Origin: Paenibacillus swuensis
GTDB taxonomy: Bacteria; Bacillota; Bacilli; Paenibacillales; DY6
Direction: 5' to 3'
NCBI RefSeq assembly: GCF_001644605.1
Contig: NZ_CP011388.1
Location: 4,259,501 to 4,323,500 of the forward strand
Length of the DNA: 64,000 bases
Part shown: one piece after another, positions 42,747 to 57,750 of the stretch
Layout of the letters: the number at the start of each line of letters is the position of its first letter
Position numbering within the stretch: the stretch's first letter is position 1
Translations under genes and position numbers: made by a program
The notes under the pieces: generated by a model
The model's database searches: none
Told to the model about the DNA's origin: nothing
What the model saw: the letters and a program-made list of their open reading frames with translations, nothing else

Positions 42747-43064
42747 TTAACCTGCCAAGATTGTGGACCATTCATCTTCAGAGAATTTCTTCTCAATGAC
42801 CCAATTCGCGGCATAGCTTTCTTTGTCAGGTTTAGTGAACGAATTATTCTGCAAATAGTATCCTTTTTCCTTGGCAATCGTGTACATGTGGCAAAAGTAT
42901 TGTGCGGCAGATACGGCGTCATCTTCGTCAAGAAACGTTTCCAATGCGCTTCCGAACCCCAACGGATTAAGCAAGGACTGAATGCTCAACTCATATGCCT
43001 CATTTTTGTGCACCACCAATATTTCACTATCGAAACATTTGACACGATGTTTAATCTTTTGCAT
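42747..43064 (-). CDS. Hypothetical protein under a sigma-B-type promoter
   Basis: A 105-residue soluble protein with no recognised domain. It begins MQKIKHRVKCFDSEILVVHKNEAYELS (key block HRVKCFDSEILVVH) and ends WVIEKKFSEDEWSTILAG. AGGTGGTG precedes the ATG at 43064. Immediately upstream is one of the best sigma-B-type promoters in the window (GTTTCA-N14-GGGTAA), so it should be a member of the stress regulon. Confidence 0.75.
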   Translation of the reverse strand: MQKIKHRVKCFDSEILVVHKNEAYELSIQSLLNPLGFGSALETFLDEDDAVSAAQYFCHMYTIAKEKGYYLQNNSFTKPDKESYAANWVIEKKFSEDEWSTILAG

Positions 43065-43111
43065 AGATTTCACCACCTAAGGAATTTTTGTGTTTATGGG
43101 GTTAGTTATCA

Positions 43112-43137
43112 TTACCCTTGACAATCGGTGGTGAAAC
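43112..43137 (-). promoter_or_regulatory. Sigma-B-type promoter for the 105-residue gene
   Basis: Minus strand GTTTCA-N14-GGGTAA, 48 bases before the start codon, close to the sigma-B consensus GTTTAA/GGGTAT. Confidence 0.8.
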
Positions 43138-43166
43138 CGCTTTATCTTGTCCTATGGCATTTTATT

Positions 43167-43937
43167 TTAGTAACTGTCCAACTCGGACAAGATTCGTTTC
43201 AGCTTCTCCATCGCGCGTCTCTGAATTCGGGAAACACTCATTTGAGACATCCCCATCTCCTGCGCTATCATACGTTGCGAGTAACCGTTATGATAAGCCA
43301 GCGTCAGAATTTGCCTCTCTTCTTCCTTCAGTCTCTCAAACGCCTGTTGAAGGTCTAAACGATTCTCAATGAACGCATAGTCGTCAATATCCGACGAAAT
43401 CATATCTCCGATGGTTGAAGCAGCTTCCTCCATGGAGAGGGGCGTATCCAAAGATACATACTGATAACACTCGCGACCCGCTAACACTTCTACCGTCTCC
43501 TCAACCGAAAGCTGCAAATGCGCCGCAATTTCCGCAATATCCGGAGAACGCTCCAGTTTCATGGTCAGCTCGTCTATCGCTTGCTGTAATAAGACACCCT
43601 TTTCCTTAATACGCCTGGGCACCTGAATATACCATGAGCTGTCTCGCAAGTAATTCTTCATGCGTCCAATCAAGCTCTTCATAGCATAAGGTTCAAAGGG
43701 GATGCCCAGCGTCGTATCGTATTGTGTGAACAGCTTCAGCAAAGCGATCTGGCCGATTTGATACAGGTCTTCGTACAAGTCGTTACGATTTCTGGACATC
43801 TTGATGGCAGCCAGCTTCACCATAGATTCATAATGCTGCAAGAGGCGGGTAGCAACATCCTGGCAATGGTTCTGTTGGTACAGAATAATATCGTCTATCG
43901 AACTTGAGCCTGGCAATGGACCGGTTTGAGATTTCAT
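43167..43937 (-). CDS. SigB/SigF/SigG-family sigma factor, copy A
   Basis: An alternative RNA polymerase sigma factor of 256 residues. Region 2 has NDLYEDLYQIGQIALLKLFTQYDTTLG (key block DLYQIGQIALLKLF) and the core-binding and -10 contact stretch IQVPRRIKEKG; region 4 has a helix-turn-helix SQRMIAQEMGMSQMSVSRIQRRAMEKL (key block MSQMSVSRIQRRA). It is a close paralogue of copy B at 47765-48541, with the same length and architecture. The ATG at 43937 overlaps the stop of the anti-sigma-like gene by four bases (ATGA), so they are made together. Confidence 0.92.
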   Translation of the reverse strand: MKSQTGPLPGSSSIDDIILYQQNHCQDVATRLLQHYESMVKLAAIKMSRNRNDLYEDLYQIGQIALLKLFTQYDTTLGIPFEPYAMKSLIGRMKNYLRDSSWYIQVPRRIKEKGVLLQQAIDELTMKLERSPDIAEIAAHLQLSVEETVEVLAGRECYQYVSLDTPLSMEEAASTIGDMISSDIDDYAFIENRLDLQQAFERLKEEERQILTLAYHNGYSQRMIAQEMGMSQMSVSRIQRRAMEKLKRILSELDSY

Positions 43938-44389
43938 AGCCAACCGCTCCTGTGAATCTGTTTCGTTAATATAACCTCGGTTCCGCCATCATTGGTGATT
44001 CTGACTTTATCCATTAACGTACTTAGCATGAGTTGACGTAATTCCGGCGGCACCTGATCAAACTTCTTTAATGAAGAAGGATCCTTGCTTAACGGCGGTA
44101 CCGATCGCTGATAATAGTAGCCGGAAACTTCATCTTTAACGATGATGGTCAACGTCTCGTGATCTACAATGAAGGAGAGTTGAAGCAGATAAGAGTTACT
44201 CTCGTGACTGCTAAAGAATAAAGCCCCTTCGCAAGCTTCCGTAACCGCGATCTTCATATCTTCAATATCTTCGAAGCAGAATCCCATTTTACTTGCGACA
44301 CTGTACAACGTTGCCCGGACCACTTCGAAGTATTCCAGTTTGGCAGGTATATGTAGAACTATGGATTCCTGACTTTGACTTGTATTCAT
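43934..44389 (-). CDS. Degenerate RsbW-like anti-sigma factor
   Basis: A 151-residue protein of the RsbW/SpoIIAB GHKL fold that has kept the N-terminal strand and helix (PAKLEYFEVVRATLYSVASKMGF) and the C-terminal VRITNDGGTEVILTK, but lost ATP-binding motifs. The N-box EACNNAVLHAY of the partner copy reads EACEGALFF here, without the Mg-coordinating Asn. The G1 box DEGKSF reads DEVSGY, and the G2 box GGLGLYLM reads PPELRQLML. It should bind its sigma factor but not phosphorylate an anti-anti-sigma factor. No rsbV-like gene lies next to it. The next gene is sigma copy A. Confidence 0.88.
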   Translation of the reverse strand: MNTSQSQESIVLHIPAKLEYFEVVRATLYSVASKMGFCFEDIEDMKIAVTEACEGALFFSSHESNSYLLQLSFIVDHETLTIIVKDEVSGYYYQRSVPPLSKDPSSLKKFDQVPPELRQLMLSTLMDKVRITNDGGTEVILTKQIHRSGWL

Positions 44390-44570: not shown

Positions 44571-45047
44571 ATGGCAACGAATAAATCACCGAAAACAACT
44601 ACTCAAACTCTCGAAGAGGCACTGAATCTGCAAGTGGCTAACTTCTCCGTCCTTTATATGAAGCTGCATCATTATCACTGGTTTGTTACAGGGCCTACAT
44701 TCTTCTCCTTGCATCCTAAATTTGAAGAAATGTACAATGAGATTACGCTCCATCTGGACGCATTAGCAGAGCGTATGTTAGGACAAGGATATAAGCCGGC
44801 ATCTCGCCTCAAAGATGTGTTGAGTATCTCTTCGATTAAAGAAGCTGAAGGCGGTGAAAGCGCCGAAGAAATGGTAACACAACTGGTAGCGGATTATACC
44901 CAGGTGTGCACGGAGCTGGATGAGGCGATCACCATGGCCGAAGAGGAAGAAGAAGACCAAGCTACGGCGGATCTGTTGACTCAATTTAAACAAGCCATTG
45001 AAAAGCATGTATACATGTTGAATAATTTCTTAGGCAAAAAAAGATAA
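44571..45047 (+). CDS. dps: Dps-family DNA-protecting ferritin
   Basis: Dps forms 12-subunit shells that oxidise Fe(II) with peroxide and protect DNA in stressed cells. The 158-residue protein has the ferroxidase ligands in KLHHYHWFVTGPTFFSLHPKFEEMY (key residues H in HHYHW and E in KFEEMY) and the DALAERM helix. B. subtilis Dps is also a sigma-B target. AGGAGG-like GGAGG lies before the ATG. A sigma-B-type promoter precedes it, divergent to the rsbW-like gene. Confidence 0.95.
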   Translation: MATNKSPKTTTQTLEEALNLQVANFSVLYMKLHHYHWFVTGPTFFSLHPKFEEMYNEITLHLDALAERMLGQGYKPASRLKDVLSISSIKEAEGGESAEEMVTQLVADYTQVCTELDEAITMAEEEEEDQATADLLTQFKQAIEKHVYMLNNFLGKKR

Positions 45048-45209: not shown

Positions 45210-46334
45210 TTAAACTAACAGACCGCGGTCAACTTGATTCATGGTGACTTGAACCAATTCATACGAAGAGACGTTCGGTGTGATTGAACCGTTGGGACCC
45301 AAGATCACATTCTCTAAGTCCGCGCCTGGAGGCACCGTACATCCTTCTAAAATTACGCAATTCTTTACGCGGGCTCCGCGTTCAATATGCACTTTGCTGA
45401 ATATTACCGAACTTTCCACACTTCCTTCAATGACACAGTCACCCGCAATCAACGAATTACGAACGATGGATTGTTGGGAATAATGTGTCGGAGAAGATTC
45501 CTCGGCATGGGTATAGATGGTATGATCACCGCCAAACAGTTGATCCCATACCTGCGGCTTCAACAAGTCCAGGCTGTGTTTCAGATAACTTCCGGCAGAA
45601 TCAATATGCGCCGTATAACCATAGTACGGATGTGCAAATACATCATATTGGTCGGCGTTCTCCAGAACTGCATTCATGAGCACGGTGTGAATACCTTCAT
45701 CATAAGTTTTCTTAATCAGATCAATTAAGAAGGTCCGACTCATCATGGCCGTGCCTAAGAACACATTCTGTATTCCCCTGCGGTTCATACCGGCTTCTTC
45801 CGTTGCGATGACATATCCTTTACGGTCAAGTGTCAACACATCGCAATCCAATGAAACTTCTTCTTGCATCGAATCTGTTGGCTTATACAGCAAAGTAACT
45901 TCAGCACCGCGCTGTTCATGCACTTGACGCATTTGGAGGTAATTTTCCGTACATAACACATGACTGGAAGTAAGGATTACATATTTCTCCTCACAGCTTT
46001 CTAGGTAATCGAGATGGCTATGGAATTTATGCACATCACCTGTCATATAACCAAAGTCAAGTACAGTCGGCAACACCGTCAAACCGCCGCGACGACGACG
46101 TTCCATCCCCCATGTCCGTCCGGACGATACATGATTAATCAGCTCACGGGATTGGACATTGGAAAGTACCGCCGCTTTCGTGATACCTGAGTTCACCAGG
46201 TTCGAAAGCGCGAAATCCACCAGTTTGTAATTCGCTGCAAAAGGCAAAGTCCCTACACAACGGTTCCACGTCAAATCAGAGAGTGCCTCTTCTCTTTGAT
46301 GTGTCAAATTAACAATACCCAGTATATCCTGCAT
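45210..46334 (-). CDS. glgD: Glucose-1-phosphate adenylyltransferase regulatory subunit GlgD
   Basis: GlgD joins GlgC to make ADP-glucose for glycogen. The 374 residues have the nucleotidyltransferase fold with TLPFAANYKLVDFALSNLVNSGI in the N-terminal half and left-handed beta-helix hexapeptide repeats in the C-terminal third. The usual GlgC catalytic start (GGEGSRL) is absent, as expected for GlgD. It follows glgC by two bases. No glgA or glgP lies here, so the pair may be a specialised stress-linked module. Confidence 0.92.
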   Translation of the reverse strand: MQDILGIVNLTHQREEALSDLTWNRCVGTLPFAANYKLVDFALSNLVNSGITKAAVLSNVQSRELINHVSSGRTWGMERRRRGGLTVLPTVLDFGYMTGDVHKFHSHLDYLESCEEKYVILTSSHVLCTENYLQMRQVHEQRGAEVTLLYKPTDSMQEEVSLDCDVLTLDRKGYVIATEEAGMNRRGIQNVFLGTAMMSRTFLIDLIKKTYDEGIHTVLMNAVLENADQYDVFAHPYYGYTAHIDSAGSYLKHSLDLLKPQVWDQLFGGDHTIYTHAEESSPTHYSQQSIVRNSLIAGDCVIEGSVESSVIFSKVHIERGARVKNCVILEGCTVPPGADLENVILGPNGSITPNVSSYELVQVTMNQVDRGLLV

Positions 46335-46336
46335 GA

Positions 46337-47536
46337 TTAACCGATCCTTTCAAGAAGATGTAATAGTTGCTTTTCGCGGGAAGTAAAGACGATGGTATTG
46401 TCCTTTTCAACCGGGTTCAAATCTTCTTTGCAGAAGAGCGAAACCTGTTGTGAATTGCCGATCATATCTCCGTCCGCAATGATAGTGCCTTCTCCAATGA
46501 TCGCGTTATGAATTTGCACATTCTCACCAATCTTCACATTCGGCATAATGACCGAGTTTCGGATCAAGGAGCCCTGTCCCACCTGAACACCATAAGAAAG
46601 AACGGAGCTATCAACGTCCCCGAAGATCTGGCAGCCTTCGCTTAACAATGAATTGCTTACAGAAGCGGGACCGCCGATATATTGCGGTGCACGATTCTGA
46701 TTAGCCGTATACAGGGGCCAAGCTTTGGAATTCAACCGAAATTCCGGTTCATCCCCCAATAAATCCATGTGGGCATCCCAGAGACTTTCAATCGTGCCGA
46801 CATCTCTCCAATACCCTTCGAAAGGATAAGCGTAAAGCTTCACATCATTGGCAAGCATGGCCGGAATGACATCTTTACCGAAGTCATGAGTGGAGCCCGG
46901 CATTTGCTCATCTCGCAGCAGATACGTGCGCAGAACATCCCATTTGAAAACATAAATGCCCATGGACGCCAAGTTGCTCTTCGGCTGCGCCGGCTTTTCC
47001 ACAAATTCTGTAACTCGGTTCCGATCATCTGTCGACATGATGCCGAAGCGGCTCGCTTCATCCCATTTCACGCCGATGACTGAAATCGTGACATCCGCAC
47101 CGGTTTCCTTATGTCGGTCAATCAAGGCGCGATAGTCCATGTTATAAATGTGATCTCCGGATAAAATAAGCACGTGTTCCGGATTGCAGCTATCCAGATA
47201 ATTGAGATTCTGGTATACCGCATTTGCCGTACCGGTATACCATTTCATCTCCTTCTTCTCCATGTACGGAGGCAGAACGGTTAAACCGCCGCGATCATGA
47301 TGCAGGTCCCATGGTGTTCCGACACCGAGGTGAGATCCCAGCGCAAGCGGTTGGTACTGAGTCAATACGCCGACCGTATCAATCCCTGAATTTGCGCAAT
47401 TGCTCAATGCAAAATCAATGATTCGATACTTCCCTCCAAAATGGACTGCGGGCTTAGCTACGTTGGCCGTGAGCGCTTTCAGTCTTGAACCCTCTCCTCC
47501 CGCCAAAAGCATCGCCACACATTCTGTTTGTTTCAT
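46337..47536 (-). CDS. glgC: Glucose-1-phosphate adenylyltransferase
   Basis: The catalytic subunit that makes ADP-glucose from ATP and glucose 1-phosphate. The 399-residue protein has [16 protein letters not shown] near 8-23, [25 protein letters not shown] (key block [12 protein letters not shown]), [13 protein letters not shown] and the substrate-binding VEKPAQPK, plus C-terminal hexapeptide repeats. It is the first gene of glgCD and has a sigma-B-type promoter upstream (47610-47635), which suggests that storage of glycogen is triggered by stress. Confidence 0.95.
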
Positions 47537-47764: not shown

Positions 47765-48541
47765 TTAACCATCCATCACATCTTGATACCCTGTAAGTAA
47801 GTCCTTTAATTTATCCACAGCGCGTTTCTGAATGCGGGATACGCTCATCTGGGATACTCCGAGCATCTGTGCAATCATACGCTGAGATAATCCTTTCTCA
47901 TAAGCCAGCACTAGAACCTTCTGTTCTTCTTCTTTCAGTTTCACAAAGGCTTCGCGCAAATCCAGTTTCTTCTCAACGGAATCATAATCGTCAACCCCGC
48001 TGCCGATGAGATCGCCGATTGTAGCCGCGCTTTCTTCATGCGAAAGCGGAGTGTCCAAGGATACATACTTGTAACACTCGCGACCTGCAAGTACTTCCAT
48101 CGTTTCTTCCAAAGAAAGATCCAGGTGTTGCGCGATTTCTTCCACAGAAGGAGAGCGCTCCAACTTGACCGTAAGATCGTCAATAGCTTGTTGGATGACG
48201 AAGCCCTTCTCTTTCACCCGGCGCGGCACTTGAACATACCACGCCTTATCGCGCAGATAGTTTTTCATGTGACCGATTACGCTCTTCATAGCGTACGGTT
48301 CAAATTGAATACCTACATTTGTATCATATTGGTCAAACAATCGGAGCAGGGAGAGTTGCCCTACTTGATACAGATCTTCATACAAATCGGGACGGTTACG
48401 AGATATTTTGCCTGCCGCGATTTTCACAATCGGCTCGTATTGTTTGAGCAATTCGGTAGCGATATCGTTGTCATGACTTTGCTGGTATTCTAAGATCTGT
48501 CCGATCCAGTCTCTTGGTGAATCCGAAGCTGAATTCGGCAT
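47765..48541 (-). CDS. sigB: SigB-family sigma factor, copy B
   Basis: A 258-residue stress sigma factor. Region 2 has PDLYEDLYQVGQLSLLRLFDQYD (key block DLYQVGQLSLLRLF) and VQVPRRVKEKG; region 4 has the helix-turn-helix LSQRMIAQMLGVSQMSVSRIQKRA (key block VSQMSVSRIQKRA). Because an intact RsbV and RsbW precede it in the B. subtilis order, this is the likely functional SigB equivalent. Its start ATG shares one base with the rsbW stop codon (TAATG). Close paralogue of copy A. Confidence 0.94.
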   Translation of the reverse strand: MPNSASDSPRDWIGQILEYQQSHDNDIATELLKQYEPIVKIAAGKISRNRPDLYEDLYQVGQLSLLRLFDQYDTNVGIQFEPYAMKSVIGHMKNYLRDKAWYVQVPRRVKEKGFVIQQAIDDLTVKLERSPSVEEIAQHLDLSLEETMEVLAGRECYKYVSLDTPLSHEESAATIGDLIGSGVDDYDSVEKKLDLREAFVKLKEEEQKVLVLAYEKGLSQRMIAQMLGVSQMSVSRIQKRAVDKLKDLLTGYQDVMDG

Positions 48542-48996
48542 TAGGCCATCTCCTTCTCCTGGCTGCGGCTTAGCAGTTTGGTCAGTACAACCTCCGTACC
48601 GGTTTCGCTTTCTACACGTACATCATCCATGAGTGCTTGCATCAAGTAAAGCCCTAACCCACCTGCTTGCACTTCATCCAATTGCTTGTTGTGCATTGAA
48701 GCATTCTCTGTATCACGTCCGCCCACATCGAAGCTTTTACCTTCGTCTTTAACCGTAATCGTTAAAGAATCGATACCGCGCTCGAAGCGGATTTCCATAT
48801 ATCCCGCCGCAATCCCTTCATAAGCATGAAGCACAGCATTGTTACAGGCTTCAGATACGGCTACTTTCATGTCCTCGACTTGTTCATACGTAAATCCCAT
48901 CTTTACAGCTATGCCGTACAGGGTCAATCTAACAATATCCACATACTCCGCGTCTGCCGGCAATCTCAGACTAACGTATTTATCAGATGCATTCAT
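48541..48996 (-). CDS. rsbW: Anti-sigma-B factor / serine kinase RsbW
   Basis: A 151-residue GHKL protein that binds SigB and phosphorylates RsbV. Its ATP-binding motifs are intact: N-box SEACNNAVLHAY near 45-56, G1 box KDEGKSFD and G2 box GGLGLYLMQ, in contrast with the copy at 43934-44389. It follows rsbV by 18 bases. This anti-sigma factor may also act on copy A; this cannot be told from sequence. Confidence 0.94.
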   Translation of the reverse strand: MNASDKYVSLRLPADAEYVDIVRLTLYGIAVKMGFTYEQVEDMKVAVSEACNNAVLHAYEGIAAGYMEIRFERGIDSLTITVKDEGKSFDVGGRDTENASMHNKQLDEVQAGGLGLYLMQALMDDVRVESETGTEVVLTKLLSRSQEKEMA

Positions 48997-49014: not shown

Positions 49015-49347
49015 TTATGCAAATTGTCCGTTGGTTGGAATAAATTTCGATACACCCGTCATATCGAATAAACGCTTGATCTTAACCGGAATTTCCTCCA
49101 CTAAAAAAGGACCTTCATTCGCCGTTCTAGCTTTGAGTATGGAGAGGATAATGCCGATGCCTGTGCTGTCAATATAACTTAATTCTTTAAGGTTCAAGAT
49201 TAATGTACGTTCTGTCTGTTCAATTAGCGGTTCCACCGCGGAACGCATTTCACCGGCCATCGACAAATCCAGTTCTCCGCTGATGTAAACTACACATTCA
49301 GTTTCTTTGTTTTCTGTTGTTACTTTGAACTTATCCATTTGATTCAT
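49015..49347 (-). CDS. rsbV: Anti-anti-sigma factor RsbV
   Basis: A 110-residue STAS-domain protein. The phosphorylation site is in LSYIDSTGIGIIL, with Ser in the DSTG motif near 60-63, identical in pattern to B. subtilis RsbV. Unphosphorylated RsbV captures RsbW and frees SigB. It is the first gene of the rsbV-rsbW-sigB operon; the window lacks rsbR/S/T but has a REC-PP2C phosphatase (56620-57750) that could be its activator. Confidence 0.95.
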   Translation of the reverse strand: MNQMDKFKVTTENKETECVVYISGELDLSMAGEMRSAVEPLIEQTERTLILNLKELSYIDSTGIGIILSILKARTANEGPFLVEEIPVKIKRLFDMTGVSKFIPTNGQFA

Positions 49348-49943: not shown

Positions 49944-49988
49944 GAGAAAAGCCGGATTAGAGTCAAGACTCTAATCCGGCTTTTCTCA
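49944..49988. terminator. Bidirectional terminator overlapping the end of a kinase gene
   Basis: GAGAAAAGCCGGATTAGAGT and its complement form an 18- to 20-pair perfect stem with T-runs on both sides. The stop codon of the minus-strand kinase gene lies inside it. Confidence 0.9.
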
Positions 49989-52022
49989 TGTGAGAATCTG
50001 GTGCAACAAACGTTTAACCTGTTCCAGTTTCAGTGGTTTAGGAATAAAGTCGATCATGCCGGCATCCAAACATTTTTCTTTATCTCCATCTAACACGTTG
50101 GCGGTCATAGCCACCATCGGGGGGTGCTTGTCTGTCCTTGCATGAATCAATCTCGCAGCCTCCAAACCGTCCATTACTGGCATATGGATATCCAAGAGAA
50201 TGAGATCATAGTCCCTGGTTTCCGACCATTGTACCGCAAGTTCACCGTTTTCCGCGATGTCAAAGCTGTAGCCTAACTTTTGAAGCATACACGAAATTAA
50301 CTGCTGATTAATATCATTATCCTCCGCTACAAGGATATGTTTATGCTGAAGCTCACCTTCAGCCTCCGCACTGCTGGCACAATAGGGTTCCGTTTCTTCC
50401 ATGAAGTGATCCGACTTGTAAGGTTCCAACAGAATGGTAAATATAAACATCGTCCCGTTTTGCTCTTCGGGAGTTTCCACCCGAATCCGGCCCCCCATCA
50501 GTTCAACCAAATTTTTGCAGATGGCTAAACCCAATCCGGTTCCGCCGTATTTACGCGTCATGGATGAGTCCAATTGAGAGAAAGGCTTGAACAGCTGCGG
50601 CATTTTATCTGCCTGAATCCCGATACCCGTATCACGCACACAGAATTCTAGTTCAATATATTCCTCGTCCTCTTGCTTCTTAGAAACAACAATATAGACG
50701 CCGCCTTGATCCGTGAATTTCACCGCGTTTCCGACCAGGTTCATCAGGACTTGACGCAGCCTCGTTACATCGCCAATGTACCAAGACGGAAGGCCAGGAT
50801 CAATACAAGTCACCATTTCAAGATTGCGCTCTTTGGACTTGGCGCTAAATAGATCCAATGTCTCTTCTATGCAAGAAGAGATACTGAAAGGATGCGGATC
50901 CAGCTCCATTCTTCCGGATTCCATCTTGGAAATATCCAAAATATCGTTGATAATCGCAACGAGGGAATCACCGCTCTTCCGAATAATATCGGCATATTCA
51001 CGCTGCTCTTCGGATAAATCGGTTTCCAATAGCAGATCCGTCATGCCGATGACTCCGTTCATGGGTGTACGAATTTCATGGCTCATCATGGCGAGAAACT
51101 CCGTCTTGGCTCTGGCGGCGATCTCCGCTTTTTCTTTAGCGTAAACCAATTGTCGCTCCGCTTGCTTTCGCTCCGTAATATCCGAGACAGTGCAGGCAAA
51201 AATTCTTACTTCATCGATGAGGGCTTCACCTATCTGTATTTCAGCATCAAACGAGGTACCATTGGCGCGTCTGGGTTTCACTTCAGACAACTTACCTACT
51301 ATATATTTTCCGGACAAACCCTTTCCTGCTGCCTCGCCGGAACGATTCTCAAGGTCAGAAAGAGCAGGAAGAATCAGGTGTATGTCTTTATCAACCAGAT
51401 CCGTGTCAGGATAACCAAACATGATTTCCACTGCGGGATTGACCGTCATAATTCGACCTTCTTCATTAAACGTAATCATGGAATCGATCGAGGTTTGGTG
51501 AATCATCCTTGCCTGTGCTTCCACTTTGGTCAATGAATACGTGACCCTAAGCAGCTCGTTGTTCATTTTCTCAAGCTCGAGTGTTTTCTGGTGCAAAAGG
51601 TTCGTTTGCATTTGTAATGTTTTTGTGCTGATATACAGGCTGACAAAGCCTTCAATCTTGGATTTCAGAATCTGGGGAACGAACGGCTTGACCATATAAT
51701 CCATAGCGCCGACCGAATAGCCGGCAAATAAGTGATTCGTTTCTTTACTGTTCGCTGAAATAAAAATGATCGGGATGTGTTTGGTTTTGTCTCTCGCTTT
51801 AATCAGTCTGGCGGTTTGAAAACCATCCATTCCGGGCATTTGCACATCCAGCACAATTACGGCAAAATCATATTTAAGCAGGTACCGTAACGCTTCTTCA
51901 CCGGAATTCGCTTTAATCAAGTTGTAGTTTTCATCGGTTAGTACGGCTTCAAGCGTCAACAGGTTTTCAGGTTGATCATCGACCAGTAACAGATTGACGG
52001 GTTCGTTATATGATTGAGACAT
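49986..52022 (-). CDS. Hybrid sensor histidine kinase, REC-PAS-HisKA-HATPase-REC
   Basis: A 678-residue soluble kinase with no membrane span. Residues about 8-125 form a receiver (VDDQPENLL, LDVQMPGMDG, Lys of MVKPF). A coiled-coil linker and a PAS domain (about 170-295, with MITFNEEGRIMTVNPA) follow. The HisKA box FLAMMSHEIRTPMNG lies near 314-328 and the ATPase has NAVKFTDQGG, DTGIGI and GGTGLGLAIC. The C-terminal receiver (about 555-676) has AEDNDINQQL and LLDIHMPVMDG. It is the last gene of the four-gene operon with cheR, the large hybrid kinase and the phosphatase. Confidence 0.93.
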   Translation of the reverse strand: MSQSYNEPVNLLLVDDQPENLLTLEAVLTDENYNLIKANSGEEALRYLLKYDFAVIVLDVQMPGMDGFQTARLIKARDKTKHIPIIFISANSKETNHLFAGYSVGAMDYMVKPFVPQILKSKIEGFVSLYISTKTLQMQTNLLHQKTLELEKMNNELLRVTYSLTKVEAQARMIHQTSIDSMITFNEEGRIMTVNPAVEIMFGYPDTDLVDKDIHLILPALSDLENRSGEAAGKGLSGKYIVGKLSEVKPRRANGTSFDAEIQIGEALIDEVRIFACTVSDITERKQAERQLVYAKEKAEIAARAKTEFLAMMSHEIRTPMNGVIGMTDLLLETDLSEEQREYADIIRKSGDSLVAIINDILDISKMESGRMELDPHPFSISSCIEETLDLFSAKSKERNLEMVTCIDPGLPSWYIGDVTRLRQVLMNLVGNAVKFTDQGGVYIVVSKKQEDEEYIELEFCVRDTGIGIQADKMPQLFKPFSQLDSSMTRKYGGTGLGLAICKNLVELMGGRIRVETPEEQNGTMFIFTILLEPYKSDHFMEETEPYCASSAEAEGELQHKHILVAEDNDINQQLISCMLQKLGYSFDIAENGELAVQWSETRDYDLILLDIHMPVMDGLEAARLIHARTDKHPPMVAMTANVLDGDKEKCLDAGMIDFIPKPLKLEQVKRLLHQILT

Positions 52023-52050: not shown

Positions 52051-52890
52051 CTATCTAACCTTGCGGTAAAGCTTCTCTTTATCGCTCAACACTTCATATT
52101 GAGCCATATGGGCGGTGAAATTAATGGATTCTTTATTTCCTAATGCCAATACGCCGTCCATAGCCAAACTTTCGTAGAATAATCTGTGAACTCTGTCCTG
52201 AAGCACTTTATCGAAGTAAATCATTACATTCCGGCAAAAGATGACCTGAAACTCATTAAAAGATCGGTCCGTGGCGAGATTGTGTTCTGCGAAAATAATA
52301 TTTTTCTTTAGAAATGGCTGGAAAATGACGGAATTATATTTAGCCGTATAATACTCCGAGAACGACTGCGTGCCGCCGGCATCCATATAATTCTTCGTGT
52401 AATCTTTCATCTTCTCCAGAGGAAATAAACCTTCTTTGGCTTTATCCAGAGAGAATTGGTTCATATCCGTCGCGTAAATCCGGGTACGATCATATAATCC
52501 TTCTTCGTGCAGCATGATCGCCATAGAATAAACTTCTTCCCCGGTTGAGCACCCAGCATGCCATATACGCAAGTAGGGATAGTTCCTTAAAATCGGTATT
52601 AGATGTTCGCGAAACCATCGAAACATCGTCGGATTGCGGAACATTTCAGTCACAGGAATACTTAAATCAGAAAGCAGTCTTTCCAGCGCTCCCCGATCGT
52701 GTAATATTCTTTCTTGCAAAGCGGATACCGTTTGTAGCTTCTCTGTATGAATCCGGTGCCAGATCCGACGCCGCAGGGAAGAGTATGCGTAATTCCGAAA
52801 ATCGAAACCATAGAACCGATGAATACCGTCCAGCATCAATTCTATTTCAATTTTCTCCCGTTCATCTTCGCGGTTCATCATGTCATCCAT
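52051..52890 (-). CDS. CheR-type protein-glutamate methyltransferase (RsbM-like)
   Basis: A 279-residue CheR homologue. The N-terminal helical domain is followed by the SAM motif IWHAGCSTGEEVYSMAI near 109-125, then IYATDMNQFSLDKAK and the FNEFQVIFCRNVMIYFD block near 215-231. Lone CheR genes beside hybrid stress kinases occur in the B. cereus group, where RsbM methylates the sensor kinase RsbK and damps SigB activation. No CheB methylesterase and no chemoreceptor gene lies nearby, which supports that role rather than chemotaxis. Confidence 0.88.
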   Translation of the reverse strand: MDDMMNREDEREKIEIELMLDGIHRFYGFDFRNYAYSSLRRRIWHRIHTEKLQTVSALQERILHDRGALERLLSDLSIPVTEMFRNPTMFRWFREHLIPILRNYPYLRIWHAGCSTGEEVYSMAIMLHEEGLYDRTRIYATDMNQFSLDKAKEGLFPLEKMKDYTKNYMDAGGTQSFSEYYTAKYNSVIFQPFLKKNIIFAEHNLATDRSFNEFQVIFCRNVMIYFDKVLQDRVHRLFYESLAMDGVLALGNKESINFTAHMAQYEVLSDKEKLYRKVR

Positions 52891-52929: not shown

Positions 52930-55900
52930 TTATTTATAAAGCCAAACTCTCATTAATGATAGCAATTGATCGGGTTGAATCGGTTTAATCACATAGTCGG
53001 AAGCTCCGGCTTCAATACACTTCTGACGGTCATCCTTCATGGCTTTAGCTGTAAGCGCAATGATGGGCAATTTGGAATATTTAGGCATCTCCCGGATGTT
53101 CTGCATCGCTTCATATCCGTCCATTTCGGGCATCATAATATCCATCAGCACCAGGTCATAGTTCGCTTTGGTGTTCAATTGCTCCAGAGCCTCTCTGCCG
53201 TTCTCGGCAAAGCTGACTTGCATTCCGTATGCTTCAAGTACACTGGAGATTGCGAATACATTGCGTATATCATCATCCACCAACAAAATGCGTTTACCGT
53301 CAAAGATCGCTTCCTTGTTCTGGTAGCGGCGAAGCATCTCCCGTTTCTCCAGTGGTAAATCCGCTTCAATCCGATGCAGGAACAGCATAGTTTCATCCAA
53401 CAGACGCTCAGGTGTGCGGACATCCTTAATGATAATGGCTTCAGCGTATCGCTTTAATTTCACTTCCGTGTACTTATCCATCTCTTTACTTACGTGAATG
53501 ATAATGGGCATTCCTTTCAACTCATCGCTGGCACGAATCAGGTCGAGTAACTCAAATCCGGAAATATCCGTTAATTCCATATCCAGAACCATACAATCAA
53601 ACTGTTGATTCCTCAGGATCTCTATCGCTTCTTCACCCGTATGCACTTCAGTAATCATAATGTCGTCATGCCCAATCAAGTCAACCAGTTCCTTACATTG
53701 CTTTATATCACTCTCAACAATTAAGAGCTTCCGAAGGTTTCGTTCAATGAAACCTTCAATCTCTGAAAACACTTGCTCCAGACGATCGCGCTCGGAAGGC
53801 TTCTTCAAGAAAGCCATTGCCCCCATAGTCAGACCCTGATGTATCTCATCGGCCACCGAGATGACGTGTACAGGAATATGCCTTGTTTCGGCAGCATTTT
53901 TCAGATGATGCAGAATGGACCAGCCGTCCATAACAGGTAATTGAATATCGAGTAAAATCGCATCAGGAGTATACATCTTAGCCAAGGATAATCCTTGATC
54001 CCCTTGTTGCGCGGTAATCACCTTAAAGCCCCGGTTGCGGGCCATATCCATTAGTATTTTCGCGAAATTGACATCATCCTCTACAATCAGGATTACCCGG
54101 TCTTCCGAATTCAGATCCGCTCGGTCATCCTCCAAACTTGGCATAGGAGCCTCACTTAATCCTTTGCCCGATTCGATCGTAGCTATAACTTCGTGATATA
54201 ACGGCACTGTAACAATCGGTTGTTCCACACTTGCCGCCGCCTCTTGCATGGCGCTCGAGTTAAGTTGCAGCGGAATGGTTAATATGAAGGTGCTTCCCTG
54301 ACCTTCGATACTTTCTACTTCTAGGTTGCCGTGCAACAGTTTGGCAAGCTCTCTGCTTATGGATAAGCCTAAACCCGTTCCACCGTATTTACGGGAGGTT
54401 GTACCGTCGGCTTGTCTAAATGCCTCGAAAATAAGTTCCTGCTTCTCCTGAGGAATGCCGATTCCGGAATCCCTAACAATCATTCGTACCGACTGATCAC
54501 CGGTTGCCTCCATGGAGAGGGACACATAACCTAAATTAGTAAATTTAAAAGCATTGGAAAGCAAGTTTTTCAGAATTTGTTTCAGGCGCTGCGTGTCCGT
54601 ATATAAAGTAGGCGGCAGCATGGCGTCAACTTTGACCTGAAAATCTATTTTCTTATCGGAAGCGACAGGGCCGAAATTGCGTTCCACATAGGAAACCAGA
54701 CTTTGAATTTGCAGAGGTTCCGCATACACATCCATCTTGCCTGTTTCTACTTTGGACAGATCGAGAATTTCATCGATAAGTTTCAGTAAATCGCTTCCTG
54801 AACCATGAATCGTCTGTGCATATTCCAGTTGTTTATCGTTTAAATTACCTTCTTTATTATCCGCTAACAATTGGGATAAAATAAGCAATGAATTTAGTGG
54901 TGTTCTTAATTCATGCGACATATTGGCCAAGAATTCGGTCTTGTATTTGGAAGCCAGGGCTAATTCTAAGGCTTGCTTCTCAAGCGATTGGCGTTGAAGT
55001 TCCACTTCGTGATGCTTCGTGTCGGTTTGCTTGATTTGTTCTTGAAGCAGCTGGGTTTTCATGACCAACTCTTCGTTACTGTGCTCCAAATCCGCTTGTT
55101 GGCGCTGTAACAGATCCTCGGATTTCATTAAAGCATGGGTATGCTGCTCCAGCTTCTCATTGGAAACCCTTAGTTCTTCCTGCTGCGCCATTAATTCTTC
55201 AGATTGTGCTTGCAGCTCCTCTGTCATCGTCTGGGATTCACGAAGCAGGTCTTCGACTTTCATGCGGCCGATAATTCGATTCATTATAAATCCGGTGCTG
55301 TCGGCTAACTGAGATAACAAATCTAATTCCAAGGATGTAAACTCCGACATTTTGCCCATTTCAATAACTCCGAGCACCTTATCTTCAAATCGCACAGGTT
55401 GCACAACCACGCTCGCAGGTAAGGCTTCGCTCAAAGCGGAAGTAACTCTGATATGCTCCGAAGTGATACCCTTCAGCAGAATTTGACGGTTGTCACGTAA
55501 CGCCTGACCAGCCAAGCCATCCCCTGCCATAAGGCTTTGGCGTCCGTTCGCTTGGTTAAAGCCGTATGTTCCGTGTAAACGCAACAAGTCTTCATTATGT
55601 TCATCGACGATATACACCGCCCCGAAGGAGGCCCCCAACACAGGCGTAAATTCACTTGAAAAAGTCTGTGCCAGCTTAGACAGATCCGTAATTTCGCCAT
55701 AAACTTCCGTAAGGCGGGCTACATGCGTTTTGATCCAGGTCTGAGCTTCCTTCTCCTCCAATATTTTGCGTTCGGAGACATTGCGTTCTTCCAAATCCAC
55801 AGCCAGTTTCTTAAACACAGTCGCCACTTCGCCAAGCTCATCCTTCGATGTAACTTTAACTCGGCTCAATGCCTTTAACTTACCTTTAGAAAATCCGCTC

Positions 55901-56559
55901 ATCAATAAATTCACAACGTTAATACCGCGTGTAATTGAAATCGTAGTCCACAACACAATAGCCATGCCGATCAGCAATCCTAATAAAGTAAGGGATGATA
56001 ACCACTGGATCGATTGACGGAACGTTGACGATGAATCGGAATAAGCCGAGTCCATCTTATTCTCTTCATAGGACATTAACTGCTCCGCCAGTTCCAGAAA
56101 CCTCTCTTGAAGGCCGAGACCGGTAGCTGTACGAAGGGCTATGGCTTCTTCTACCTTCCCTGCCTTGGTCAGCCGGATAACTTCATCCGCATACGTGTTA
56201 AATTGCTGAGCCAAACTCGCTCCCGTGTACGTTAGCTGTTGTTCTTGTTCATCAATCGTTGATGTTTCGCGCAACTTAACGGCTAATTCTTTATTCACTG
56301 CGACGCTTTCTTCCAGCCTCATCATGTTCGCAGCTGAATTGGTTTGGCCCGGAATCATAGCATTAGCGACGTATCTGGCCACCTTATTTACTTGCCCGCG
56401 CATGTTCTGCGCGTTCTTATAATTCTGATAACGTTCATTATAAATCATTTCCAGCTTTTCATTCATCGTAGACATTTGGTTATAAGCCAAAGTTGTCAAT
56501 ACAAGCATAATCAACATCATGGCGCTAAAGCCCAGCAGTAATTTGGCTCTGATCTTCAC
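52930..56559 (-). CDS. Large membrane hybrid sensor kinase with three receivers (RsbK-like)
   Basis: A 1,209-residue protein. Residues 7-28 and about 187-210 are membrane segments flanking an all-helical sensor (CHASE3/4HB type); HAMP at about 211-262; GAF at about 285-430; a long Gln/Glu/Leu coiled coil at about 435-545; HisKA box FLANMSHELRTPLN near 555; ATPase with NAFKFTNLG, DSGIGIP and GGTGLGLSI. Then three receivers: VEDDVNFAK (about 825-945), VESDIKQCK (about 948-1065) and VDDDIRNVFA (about 1085-1205). The architecture is close to RsbK of the B. cereus group. The middle receiver has E-S-D where DD is usual and may not be phosphorylated. Confidence 0.92.
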   Translation of the reverse strand: MKIRAKLLLGFSAMMLIMLVLTTLAYNQMSTMNEKLEMIYNERYQNYKNAQNMRGQVNKVARYVANAMIPGQTNSAANMMRLEESVAVNKELAVKLRETSTIDEQEQQLTYTGASLAQQFNTYADEVIRLTKAGKVEEAIALRTATGLGLQERFLELAEQLMSYEENKMDSAYSDSSSTFRQSIQWLSSLTLLGLLIGMAIVLWTTISITRGINVVNLLMSGFSKGKLKALSRVKVTSKDELGEVATVFKKLAVDLEERNVSERKILEEKEAQTWIKTHVARLTEVYGEITDLSKLAQTFSSEFTPVLGASFGAVYIVDEHNEDLLRLHGTYGFNQANGRQSLMAGDGLAGQALRDNRQILLKGITSEHIRVTSALSEALPASVVVQPVRFEDKVLGVIEMGKMSEFTSLELDLLSQLADSTGFIMNRIIGRMKVEDLLRESQTMTEELQAQSEELMAQQEELRVSNEKLEQHTHALMKSEDLLQRQQADLEHSNEELVMKTQLLQEQIKQTDTKHHEVELQRQSLEKQALELALASKYKTEFLANMSHELRTPLNSLLILSQLLADNKEGNLNDKQLEYAQTIHGSGSDLLKLIDEILDLSKVETGKMDVYAEPLQIQSLVSYVERNFGPVASDKKIDFQVKVDAMLPPTLYTDTQRLKQILKNLLSNAFKFTNLGYVSLSMEATGDQSVRMIVRDSGIGIPQEKQELIFEAFRQADGTTSRKYGGTGLGLSISRELAKLLHGNLEVESIEGQGSTFILTIPLQLNSSAMQEAAASVEQPIVTVPLYHEVIATIESGKGLSEAPMPSLEDDRADLNSEDRVILIVEDDVNFAKILMDMARNRGFKVITAQQGDQGLSLAKMYTPDAILLDIQLPVMDGWSILHHLKNAAETRHIPVHVISVADEIHQGLTMGAMAFLKKPSERDRLEQVFSEIEGFIERNLRKLLIVESDIKQCKELVDLIGHDDIMITEVHTGEEAIEILRNQQFDCMVLDMELTDISGFELLDLIRASDELKGMPIIIHVSKEMDKYTEVKLKRYAEAIIIKDVRTPERLLDETMLFLHRIEADLPLEKREMLRRYQNKEAIFDGKRILLVDDDIRNVFAISSVLEAYGMQVSFAENGREALEQLNTKANYDLVLMDIMMPEMDGYEAMQNIREMPKYSKLPIIALTAKAMKDDRQKCIEAGASDYVIKPIQPDQLLSLMRVWLYK

Positions 56560-56619: not shown

Positions 56620-57750
56620 CTACGGCTTAATATCAATAATCACGATACACATATCATCCTGAATTTCTTGTCCTTCGAAGAAATGTTGATGTATGGTGTT
56701 AAGATCCGATTTCTGATAGGGAGCAAGCTTCGAAACCATGGCAGGAAACAACTCTTCATCTTCTTGAACCAGGTGGTCGGATAGTCCGTCTGTATACAGG
56801 ACGATACGGCACTCCTCGTTATACTCCACGGTTTGGGTATGCACCTCAATTGAATCGAAAAATCCGATGGCGCAAGCGCCTTTGTCCAACGGTCTGGAAC
56901 GACCTTGTTCCTCGAGCATTAAACCTGCGGGATGTCCTGCATTAGCGTATTGAATCGTTCTGTTCTTGGTATCGACCACCAGATAAATGGCCGTAAAATA
57001 ATATTGTACAAATGAACCCGGCACATAAAGCTGATTCATGCGTCTGTTCAATTCCTGAATAACCTTCTGAGGCGTAATCATCGTGGTAATAATGTCTCTG
57101 AGCAAAGAAGCCACAAACATGCTGACCAAGGAGGATGAAATACCGTGGCCCATCACATCCAACAGAATGATGCCACGCCGATGTTCATCAATAGGATACC
57201 AAGCATACAGATCCCCCGCAAGTACGGCGGACGGCTGATAAATCGCTTGAATATGAATGTGATCCTCAAGCAAAGTAGGTGTCAATACACCTGTCTGTAC
57301 TTGCTTGGCTAGCTGTAATTCGTTGCGCATATGATCATCACGTTCTTTGTGCCAATCCTTCTCATGCTTCAGGCGCAAAGCAACACGTATTCGGGCCAGC
57401 AGCTCGACACGGTTTATCGGTTTGGTTACATAGTCGATCGCGCCCGCATCTAATGCTTCTGCCAGCTTATTGGAGTCTCCTAACGCCGTAACCATAATAA
57501 CAGGAATATCTTTCAACGCCGGCAACAATTGAAGTCTGCGGCACGCTTCAATCCCATCCATATCCGGCATCATGATGTCCAGCAATATTAAATGAAAAGG
57601 CGAAGTTCCCTTGACTTCTTCCTGCTCCAGCAGCTCAAACATGACCTGTGCGGACGGAGCGGTTATCAGATCGCGGTAGCCGGCCTTCTTCAGAATTTCT
57701 TTAATAATTATTAAATTGGTGGGATTGTCGTCAACAATCATTATGCTCAT
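56620..57750 (-). CDS. Response-regulator PP2C phosphatase (RsbY/RsbU-like)
   Basis: A 376-residue protein. Receiver about 1-122 (VDDNPTNL, LLDIMMPDMDG with acceptor Asp, Lys of VTKPI), a coiled-coil linker, and a PPM/PP2C-type Ser phosphatase domain about 160-374 with AGDLYAWYPID, DVMGHGISSSLVSM, ANAGHPAGL and YTDGLSD, closing DDMCIVIID. RsbY in the B. cereus group has the same layout and dephosphorylates RsbV when phosphorylated by RsbK. It is the first gene of the four-gene operon. Confidence 0.93.
   Translation of the reverse strand: MSIMIVDDNPTNLIIIKEILKKAGYRDLITAPSAQVMFELLEQEEVKGTSPFHLILLDIMMPDMDGIEACRRLQLLPALKDIPVIMVTALGDSNKLAEALDAGAIDYVTKPINRVELLARIRVALRLKHEKDWHKERDDHMRNELQLAKQVQTGVLTPTLLEDHIHIQAIYQPSAVLAGDLYAWYPIDEHRRGIILLDVMGHGISSSLVSMFVASLLRDIITTMITPQKVIQELNRRMNQLYVPGSFVQYYFTAIYLVVDTKNRTIQYANAGHPAGLMLEEQGRSRPLDKGACAIGFFDSIEVHTQTVEYNEECRIVLYTDGLSDHLVQEDEELFPAMVSKLAPYQKSDLNTIHQHFFEGQEIQDDMCIVIIDIKP

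Follow-up and report, generated by a model that had tools for sequence, protein, structure and literature searches.

Partner switching is usually explained by one protein that is brake and kinase at once, and the locus studied here raises the question of what an RsbW homologue may still do beside its own sigma gene after its ATP site has been lost. The window, i.e., the whole stretch of 64,000 nucleotides from Paenibacillus swuensis that was analysed, encodes two SigB-type sigma factors, one intact and one degenerate RsbW, and a single obvious RsbV (Table 1). Along the minus strand, genes for a PP2C phosphatase, a hybrid kinase, a CheR-type protein and a receiver-kinase-receiver protein are followed by rsbV_B, rsbW_B, sigB_B and two glgC/glgD-like genes, beyond which, past the divergent dps gene, lie rsbW_A, sigB_A and hyp109. 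The start of sigB_A is more likely ATG 43937, the listed TTG 43943 being merely the mechanical first start.

Table 1. Features of the two rsbW-sigB loci in the window
Feature	Positions	Strand	Description	Basis
hyp109	42747..43076	-	109 aa, adjoins canonical sigB in several relatives	no Pfam match
sigB_A	43167..43937	-	further SigB-type sigma factor of 256 aa (start ATG 43937)	66% identity to sigB_B
rsbW_A	43934..44389	-	RsbW homologue without the N-box Asn, the Gly of G1 or the glycines of G2	PF13581, alignments
dps	44571..45047	+	Dps/ferritin-like protein, divergent neighbour	domain search
glgD-like (45210-46334), glgC-like (46337-47536)	45210..47536	-	between both sigB copies, presumably glgD and glgC	nucleotidyl transferase and hexapeptide domains
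sigB_B	47765..48541	-	canonical SigB	profile searches
rsbW_B	48541..48996	-	intact RsbW, putative kinase/anti-sigma factor	NCBIfam PRK04069, 178.2 bits (cut-off 145); motifs
rsbV_B	49015..49347	-	RsbV, DSTG serine kept	only RsbV-like protein of the genome adjoining a SigB
receiver-PAS-histidine kinase-receiver protein	49986..52022	-		domains
CheR-type methyltransferase	52051..52890	-	RsbM-like by domain and position	analogy to PMC9847131
hybrid histidine kinase	52930..56559	-	1209 aa, GAF and receiver domains, RsbK-like	domains
receiver-PP2C phosphatase	56620..57750	-	376 aa, RsbY-like, candidate RsbV_B phosphatase	domains

The gene rsbW_A encodes 151 amino acids in an open frame from an ATG start, and its product matched PF13581 (HATPase_c_2) with an E-value of 8.5e-13, in keeping with the GHKL/HATPase_c_2 fold, while identity to RsbW_B amounted to 37%. 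As reported in the initial annotation, the gene overlaps its sigma gene, the stop codon TGA and the ATG of sigB_A sharing the bases ATGA with an AGGAG upstream. Alignments also confirmed the loss of the N-box Asn and of the G2 box (residues of the ATP site in the numbering of RsbW_B): the N-box reads EACEGA instead of EACNNA, with the Mg-binding N53 replaced by Gly, and GGLG of the G2 box became PELR, so that all three glycines are gone (G112 to P, G113 to E, G115 to R). For the G1 box the wording had been slightly too strong, as its Gly is indeed lost (G86 to V) but its Asp is kept (D84, in KDEV); the catalytic base E49 and T134 are retained as well. According to PMC10345196, Asn50 of SpoIIAB chelates Mg, Glu46 is the base and Gly107 and Gly109 contact the nucleotide. 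N53 was present in all 76 sigma-linked RsbW proteins sampled from the order and the N-box Asn in 65 of 65 sigma-linked loci from named genomes, two sets that share species. Against the NCBIfam RsbW equivalog (PRK04069), RsbW_A reached 101 bits and missed the cut-off of 145 bits. In its N-box and its G1 and G2 boxes it departs from the RsbW/SpoIIAB serine kinases, whose fold it shares, and it displays the features of a non-kinase RsbW of the Mycobacterium smegmatis RsbW1 type: its kinase motifs are absent, it forms an operon with its sigma gene, and the genome encodes both an RsbV-like antagonist with DSTG and a separate RsbW, namely RsbW_B, whose intact motifs point to a kinase.

Arg20 and Lys41 of SpoIIAB, which contact sigma according to PMC10345196, have kept equivalents in RsbW_A (R23 and K44). 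For RsbV, the contacts of RsbW given in PMC7340262 are R23, D42, K44/S48, E49 and Y118; with this numbering carried over through alignments, RsbW_A retains the R, D (D42), K and E (E49), while S48 is exchanged for Thr and the Tyr (Y118 of B. subtilis) for Leu, owing to which RsbV_B may bind weakly or no longer at all. The two RsbW copies differ most in the lid segment, where 12 of 57 positions are identical; the N-terminal dimer/docking part shares 26 of 53 and the C-terminal part 15 of 37. An AlphaFold2 model of RsbW_A reached a pLDDT of 81.9, with values below 50 for lid-region residues 90-96 and 106-108, and its closest PDB structures were RsbW 6m37 (TM 0.89 by target) and 6m36, followed by SpoIIAB and mycobacterial UsfX chains. 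Judging from alignments and model, an anti-sigma factor without kinase activity, as proposed initially, is plausible: the protein has lost its ATP site but retains the fold, the link to a sigma gene and the majority of the docking residues. As the N-terminal part forming the dimer is the segment best conserved between both copies, RsbW_A could alternatively pair with RsbW_B and blunt or block it, as RsbW3 of M. smegmatis does to RsbW1 according to PMC7693655; it would then boost SigB instead of serving as an anti-sigma factor. We consider this quite unlikely, for the gene shares bases with that of its own sigma factor and the sigma-contacting Arg and Lys are preserved in the protein, which suggests an anti-sigma role.

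The genome of P. swuensis (one contig, 99.97% complete) encodes three STAS proteins above the PF01740 cut-off, namely SpoIIAA, RsbV_B and one at 1,935,422, and three SpoIIE-type phosphatases, located at 1,491,720, in the window and at 1,936,246. A third partner-switch cluster consisting of PP2C, STAS and HATPase genes spans 1,934,325-1,937,627 (L004). Its STAS protein adjoins the HATPase and PP2C and therefore looks like part of a separate system, so that, with another STAS protein being SpoIIAA, RsbV_B remains as the one obvious candidate to antagonise RsbW_A and RsbW_B alike; the third STAS protein may also be a partner of RsbW_A. By domain content, the gene cluster in the window resembles the RsbK-RsbY-RsbM module controlling SigB in Bacillus cereus, which PMC9847131 reports for Paenibacillus too.

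With one obvious RsbV for two SigB and a cluster of RsbK-, RsbM- and RsbY-like proteins, a division of labour around a shared RsbV_B is the simplest model, in which RsbW_A would be a non-kinase anti-sigma factor using the same antagonist as RsbW_B; it is our best explanation, to which we give an even chance. RsbW_A would hold SigB_A, possibly SigB_B too, and would be unable to phosphorylate RsbV, a task left to RsbW_B alone. Without stress, RsbW_B would keep RsbV_B in its phosphorylated state; under stress, input from the RsbK/RsbM-like proteins would reach the RsbY-like phosphatase, which would yield free RsbV_B that titrates RsbW_A and RsbW_B and thereby releases both sigma factors. With its kinase site lost, the A branch would neither respond to ATP/ADP nor be able to reset itself; it would be governed by the phosphorylation state that the B branch imposes, with a different threshold. 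The initial conclusion that SigB_A can be released only by another signal is not compelling, as the genome offers, linked to SigB, one RsbW with an intact kinase site, together with a single obvious RsbV; it is further undercut by M. smegmatis, where, according to PMC7693655, a non-kinase anti-sigma factor is released by an RsbV-like protein whose phosphorylation is the work of a second RsbW.

Consistent with a shared RsbV_B are the loss of the ATP site, the kept contacts, the divergence of the lid, the predicted fold, the number of STAS proteins, the rsbW-sigB pairs without rsbV in relatives (see below) and the precedent in M. smegmatis. Against it stand the loss of Y118, the occurrence of the pair in one genome only, the third STAS protein as a possible partner and a promoter of rsbW_A that is not clearly of SigB type. 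Sigma binding of the SpoIIAB type is nucleotide-dependent, a behaviour that a protein without an ATP site may be unable to match, which likewise counts against this model. In line with the initial conclusion, RsbW_A could instead hold SigB_A independently of RsbV, with release by another partner, a ligand or proteolysis and no phosphorylation switch. Such control would fit an A operon without rsbV or a convincing remnant of it (best tblastn E-value 1.7 upstream of rsbW_A), the missing Y118 and a lid segment in which a new site could arise freely. We regard it as unlikely, as no candidate sensor or extra regulator was found between dps and hyp109, most RsbV-docking residues are kept and a sufficient RsbV is encoded nearby.

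Regarding promoters, GTTTCA-N14-GGGTAA is frequent upstream of rsbV1 and dps in relatives, and an exact copy of this SigB-like promoter is located upstream of hyp109 (43077-43166) in the window. Scores, which are indicative only as they depend on weights chosen by us and on mononucleotide shuffles, revealed a SigB-like GTTTGA-N14-AGGTAA for dps (shuffle P 0.006), only GTTTCA-N14-GTTTAA for rsbW_A (shuffle P 0.19), which is not clearly SigB-type, and no clear SigB-type site in the scan for rsbV_B (shuffle P 0.24).

The weak promoter of rsbW_A would also fit a relaxed duplicate that is decaying with little function left, SigB_A being held by RsbW_B or mostly unexpressed, as would the restriction of the pair to one genome, the very long branch of RsbW_A (3.35 changes per site) and the branch of SigB_A, which exceeds that of SigB_B (0.64 vs 0.30). 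Yet the frame of rsbW_A is open, its start codon and ribosome site are in place, the overlap is exact, and conserved columns are kept in both products: RsbW_A retains 29 and RsbW_B 47 of the 48 columns conserved to at least 95% in 75 sigma-linked RsbW, and SigB_A 86 of the 93 columns conserved to at least 98% in 64 other SigB. In a neutral simulation from rsbW_B to 40% identity, limited to substitutions, just 2 of 300 runs stayed stop-free, with the median first stop codon arising at 89% identity. An open frame after neutral decay is thus improbable, as stops would almost always have arisen, and we hold little expectation of a decaying duplicate. Nor does the gene bear the marks of a pseudogene in its sequence, the frame being open and ribosome sites being present.

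Conserved co-occurrence of the degenerate pair in related genomes, which had been put forward for checking, was absent from all other genomes sampled. No orthologue emerged when RsbW_A was compared with two overlapping sets of genomes from the order (149 and 392) and SigB_A with the larger set, where its own family is represented by its own genome; named genomes scanned with RsbW_A as the sole query yielded no degenerate pair, and a search for plasmid copies gave no match. The best RsbW match outside the own genome was found in genome G135 (E-value 9.2e-29) with intact motifs, and these two genomes were the only ones of the 392 with two SigB copies (E-value at most 1e-60). In G135 (L054, 5535-7456), a divergent dps gene accompanies an rsbW-sigB pair without rsbV, its RsbW being intact. 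Pairs of rsbW-sigB without adjacent rsbV were also observed at four named Paenibacillus loci (L135, L140, L143, L175), where rsbV-rsbW2 is located about 4 to 5 kb off, beyond CheR and hybrid kinase genes. At another locus, a sigma-linked rsbW (L103, 9742-10212, G110) is interrupted by one in-frame TAG.

Many relatives share the order CheR, kinase, glgC (glgD), rsbV2-rsbW2 without sigma gene, divergent dps, rsbV-rsbW-sigB and hyp109, a composite from which individual genomes may miss some genes, and in group f10 rsbV-rsbW-sigB directly follows the kinase gene. By position, rsbW_A-sigB_A corresponds to the dps/hyp109 slot and rsbV_B-rsbW_B-sigB_B to the kinase slot. The RsbW tree sets RsbW_A near RsbW2, but branches are long, and none of the three positions compared by AU tests, including an origin from RsbW1 or RsbW2, could be rejected (p 0.50, 0.66 and 0.55) with 44 of 107 rows, at most two per genus and type and the RsbW2 rows of group g21 omitted. 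SigB_A and SigB_B were not resolved as sisters in the SigB tree.

A second loss of the ATP site was detected in the sigma-less RsbW2 of group g21, where N53 is replaced by H or Y and G1/G2 are broken in 14 of 14 genomes examined, while RsbW2 outside g21 keeps the Asn in 15 of 15. Among the best 80 of 304 named loci, ranked by likeness to dead RsbW2, 17 of 29 sigma-less RsbW lacked the N-box Asn, all 17 from species such as P. tyrfis, P. elgii, P. ehimensis, P. tianmuensis, P. validus and P. caseinilyticus. Dead RsbW2 genes lie beside rsbV2 without a sigma gene (L041-L050, L104-L107 and L115-L131, P. elgii/tyrfis/validus group). The DSTG serine is kept in RsbV2 of the g21 loci aligned, and the Y118 position of the dead g21 RsbW2 is Tyr or Phe in 14 of 14, differing from the Leu of RsbW_A. 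Selection on dead RsbW2 is relaxed, but constrained, with pairwise dN/dS of 0.20-0.48, RsbW1 from these genomes showing 0.01-0.17 (20 of 78 pairs, those with RsbW2 dS under 1.2). As replacement residues, gene linkage and placement differ, the loss in g21 appears to be independent of that in RsbW_A, the tree itself being weak. Tentatively, and with more doubt than confidence, ATP-site loss in RsbW paralogues might be a recurrent route by which Paenibacillales rewire partner switching: RsbW_A would be a sigma-bound brake neither sensing ATP nor resetting RsbV, and, independently, the dead RsbW2 of the P. elgii/tyrfis/validus group, maintained beside its RsbV2, would act as a non-phosphorylating sponge setting the SigB threshold.

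Altogether, the degenerate RsbW_A-SigB_A pair was correctly observed and is uncommon. An intact and a kinase-dead RsbW beside two SigB and one obvious RsbV would make brake and kinase functions genetically separable in a Firmicute, and the clade-wide dead RsbW2 of Paenibacillus, with close relatives at hand, would make the question testable across species. Literature searches in open-licence papers yielded the mycobacterial precedent and, among the papers listed, no report of this degenerate pair or of the dead RsbW2. Given this precedent, the notion of a new type of partner-switch control is weakened to a new variant within the SigB system; the mechanism probably varies a division of labour that is already known.

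According to PMC7693655, SigF of M. smegmatis is bound by RsbW1, which shows no kinase activity towards RsfB; RsfB is instead phosphorylated by RsbW2. RsbW3 heterodimerises with RsbW1 and does not bind SigF, and both RsbW1 and RsbW3 group with anti-sigma factors that have no kinase activity. Like RsbW1 and M. tuberculosis UsfX (anti-SigF), RsbW_A is paired with a sigma gene, the kinase would be a paralogue and an RsbV-like antagonist would be common to both. In contrast to the mycobacterial kinase paralogue, which in that account does not bind sigma, RsbW_B has its own SigB, and the sigma factor of RsbW_A is a second SigB copy instead of SigF. UsfX chains in the PDB align to the RsbW profile only over the N-terminal half (positions 4-80), the best-kept half of RsbW_A. 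With RsbW3, RsbW_A shares being a non-kinase RsbW homologue, but unlike RsbW3, which does not bind SigF, it is encoded by a gene overlapping its own sigma gene. With B. subtilis RsbW (6m36, 6m37), it has in common the fold, the dimer/docking helices, the overlap with sigB and the sigma-contacting Arg/Lys, whereas N-box and G boxes are intact, by alignment, only in the B. subtilis protein. The B. subtilis rsbW operon also contains the rsbV partner, which the rsbW_A operon lacks. Finally, as in the RsbK-RsbY-RsbM module of B. cereus (PMC9847131), genes for a hybrid kinase, a receiver-PP2C and a CheR protein lie by rsbV-rsbW-sigB, to which the window, unlike that module, adds a receiver-histidine kinase-receiver gene and a second, degenerate rsbW-sigB pair.
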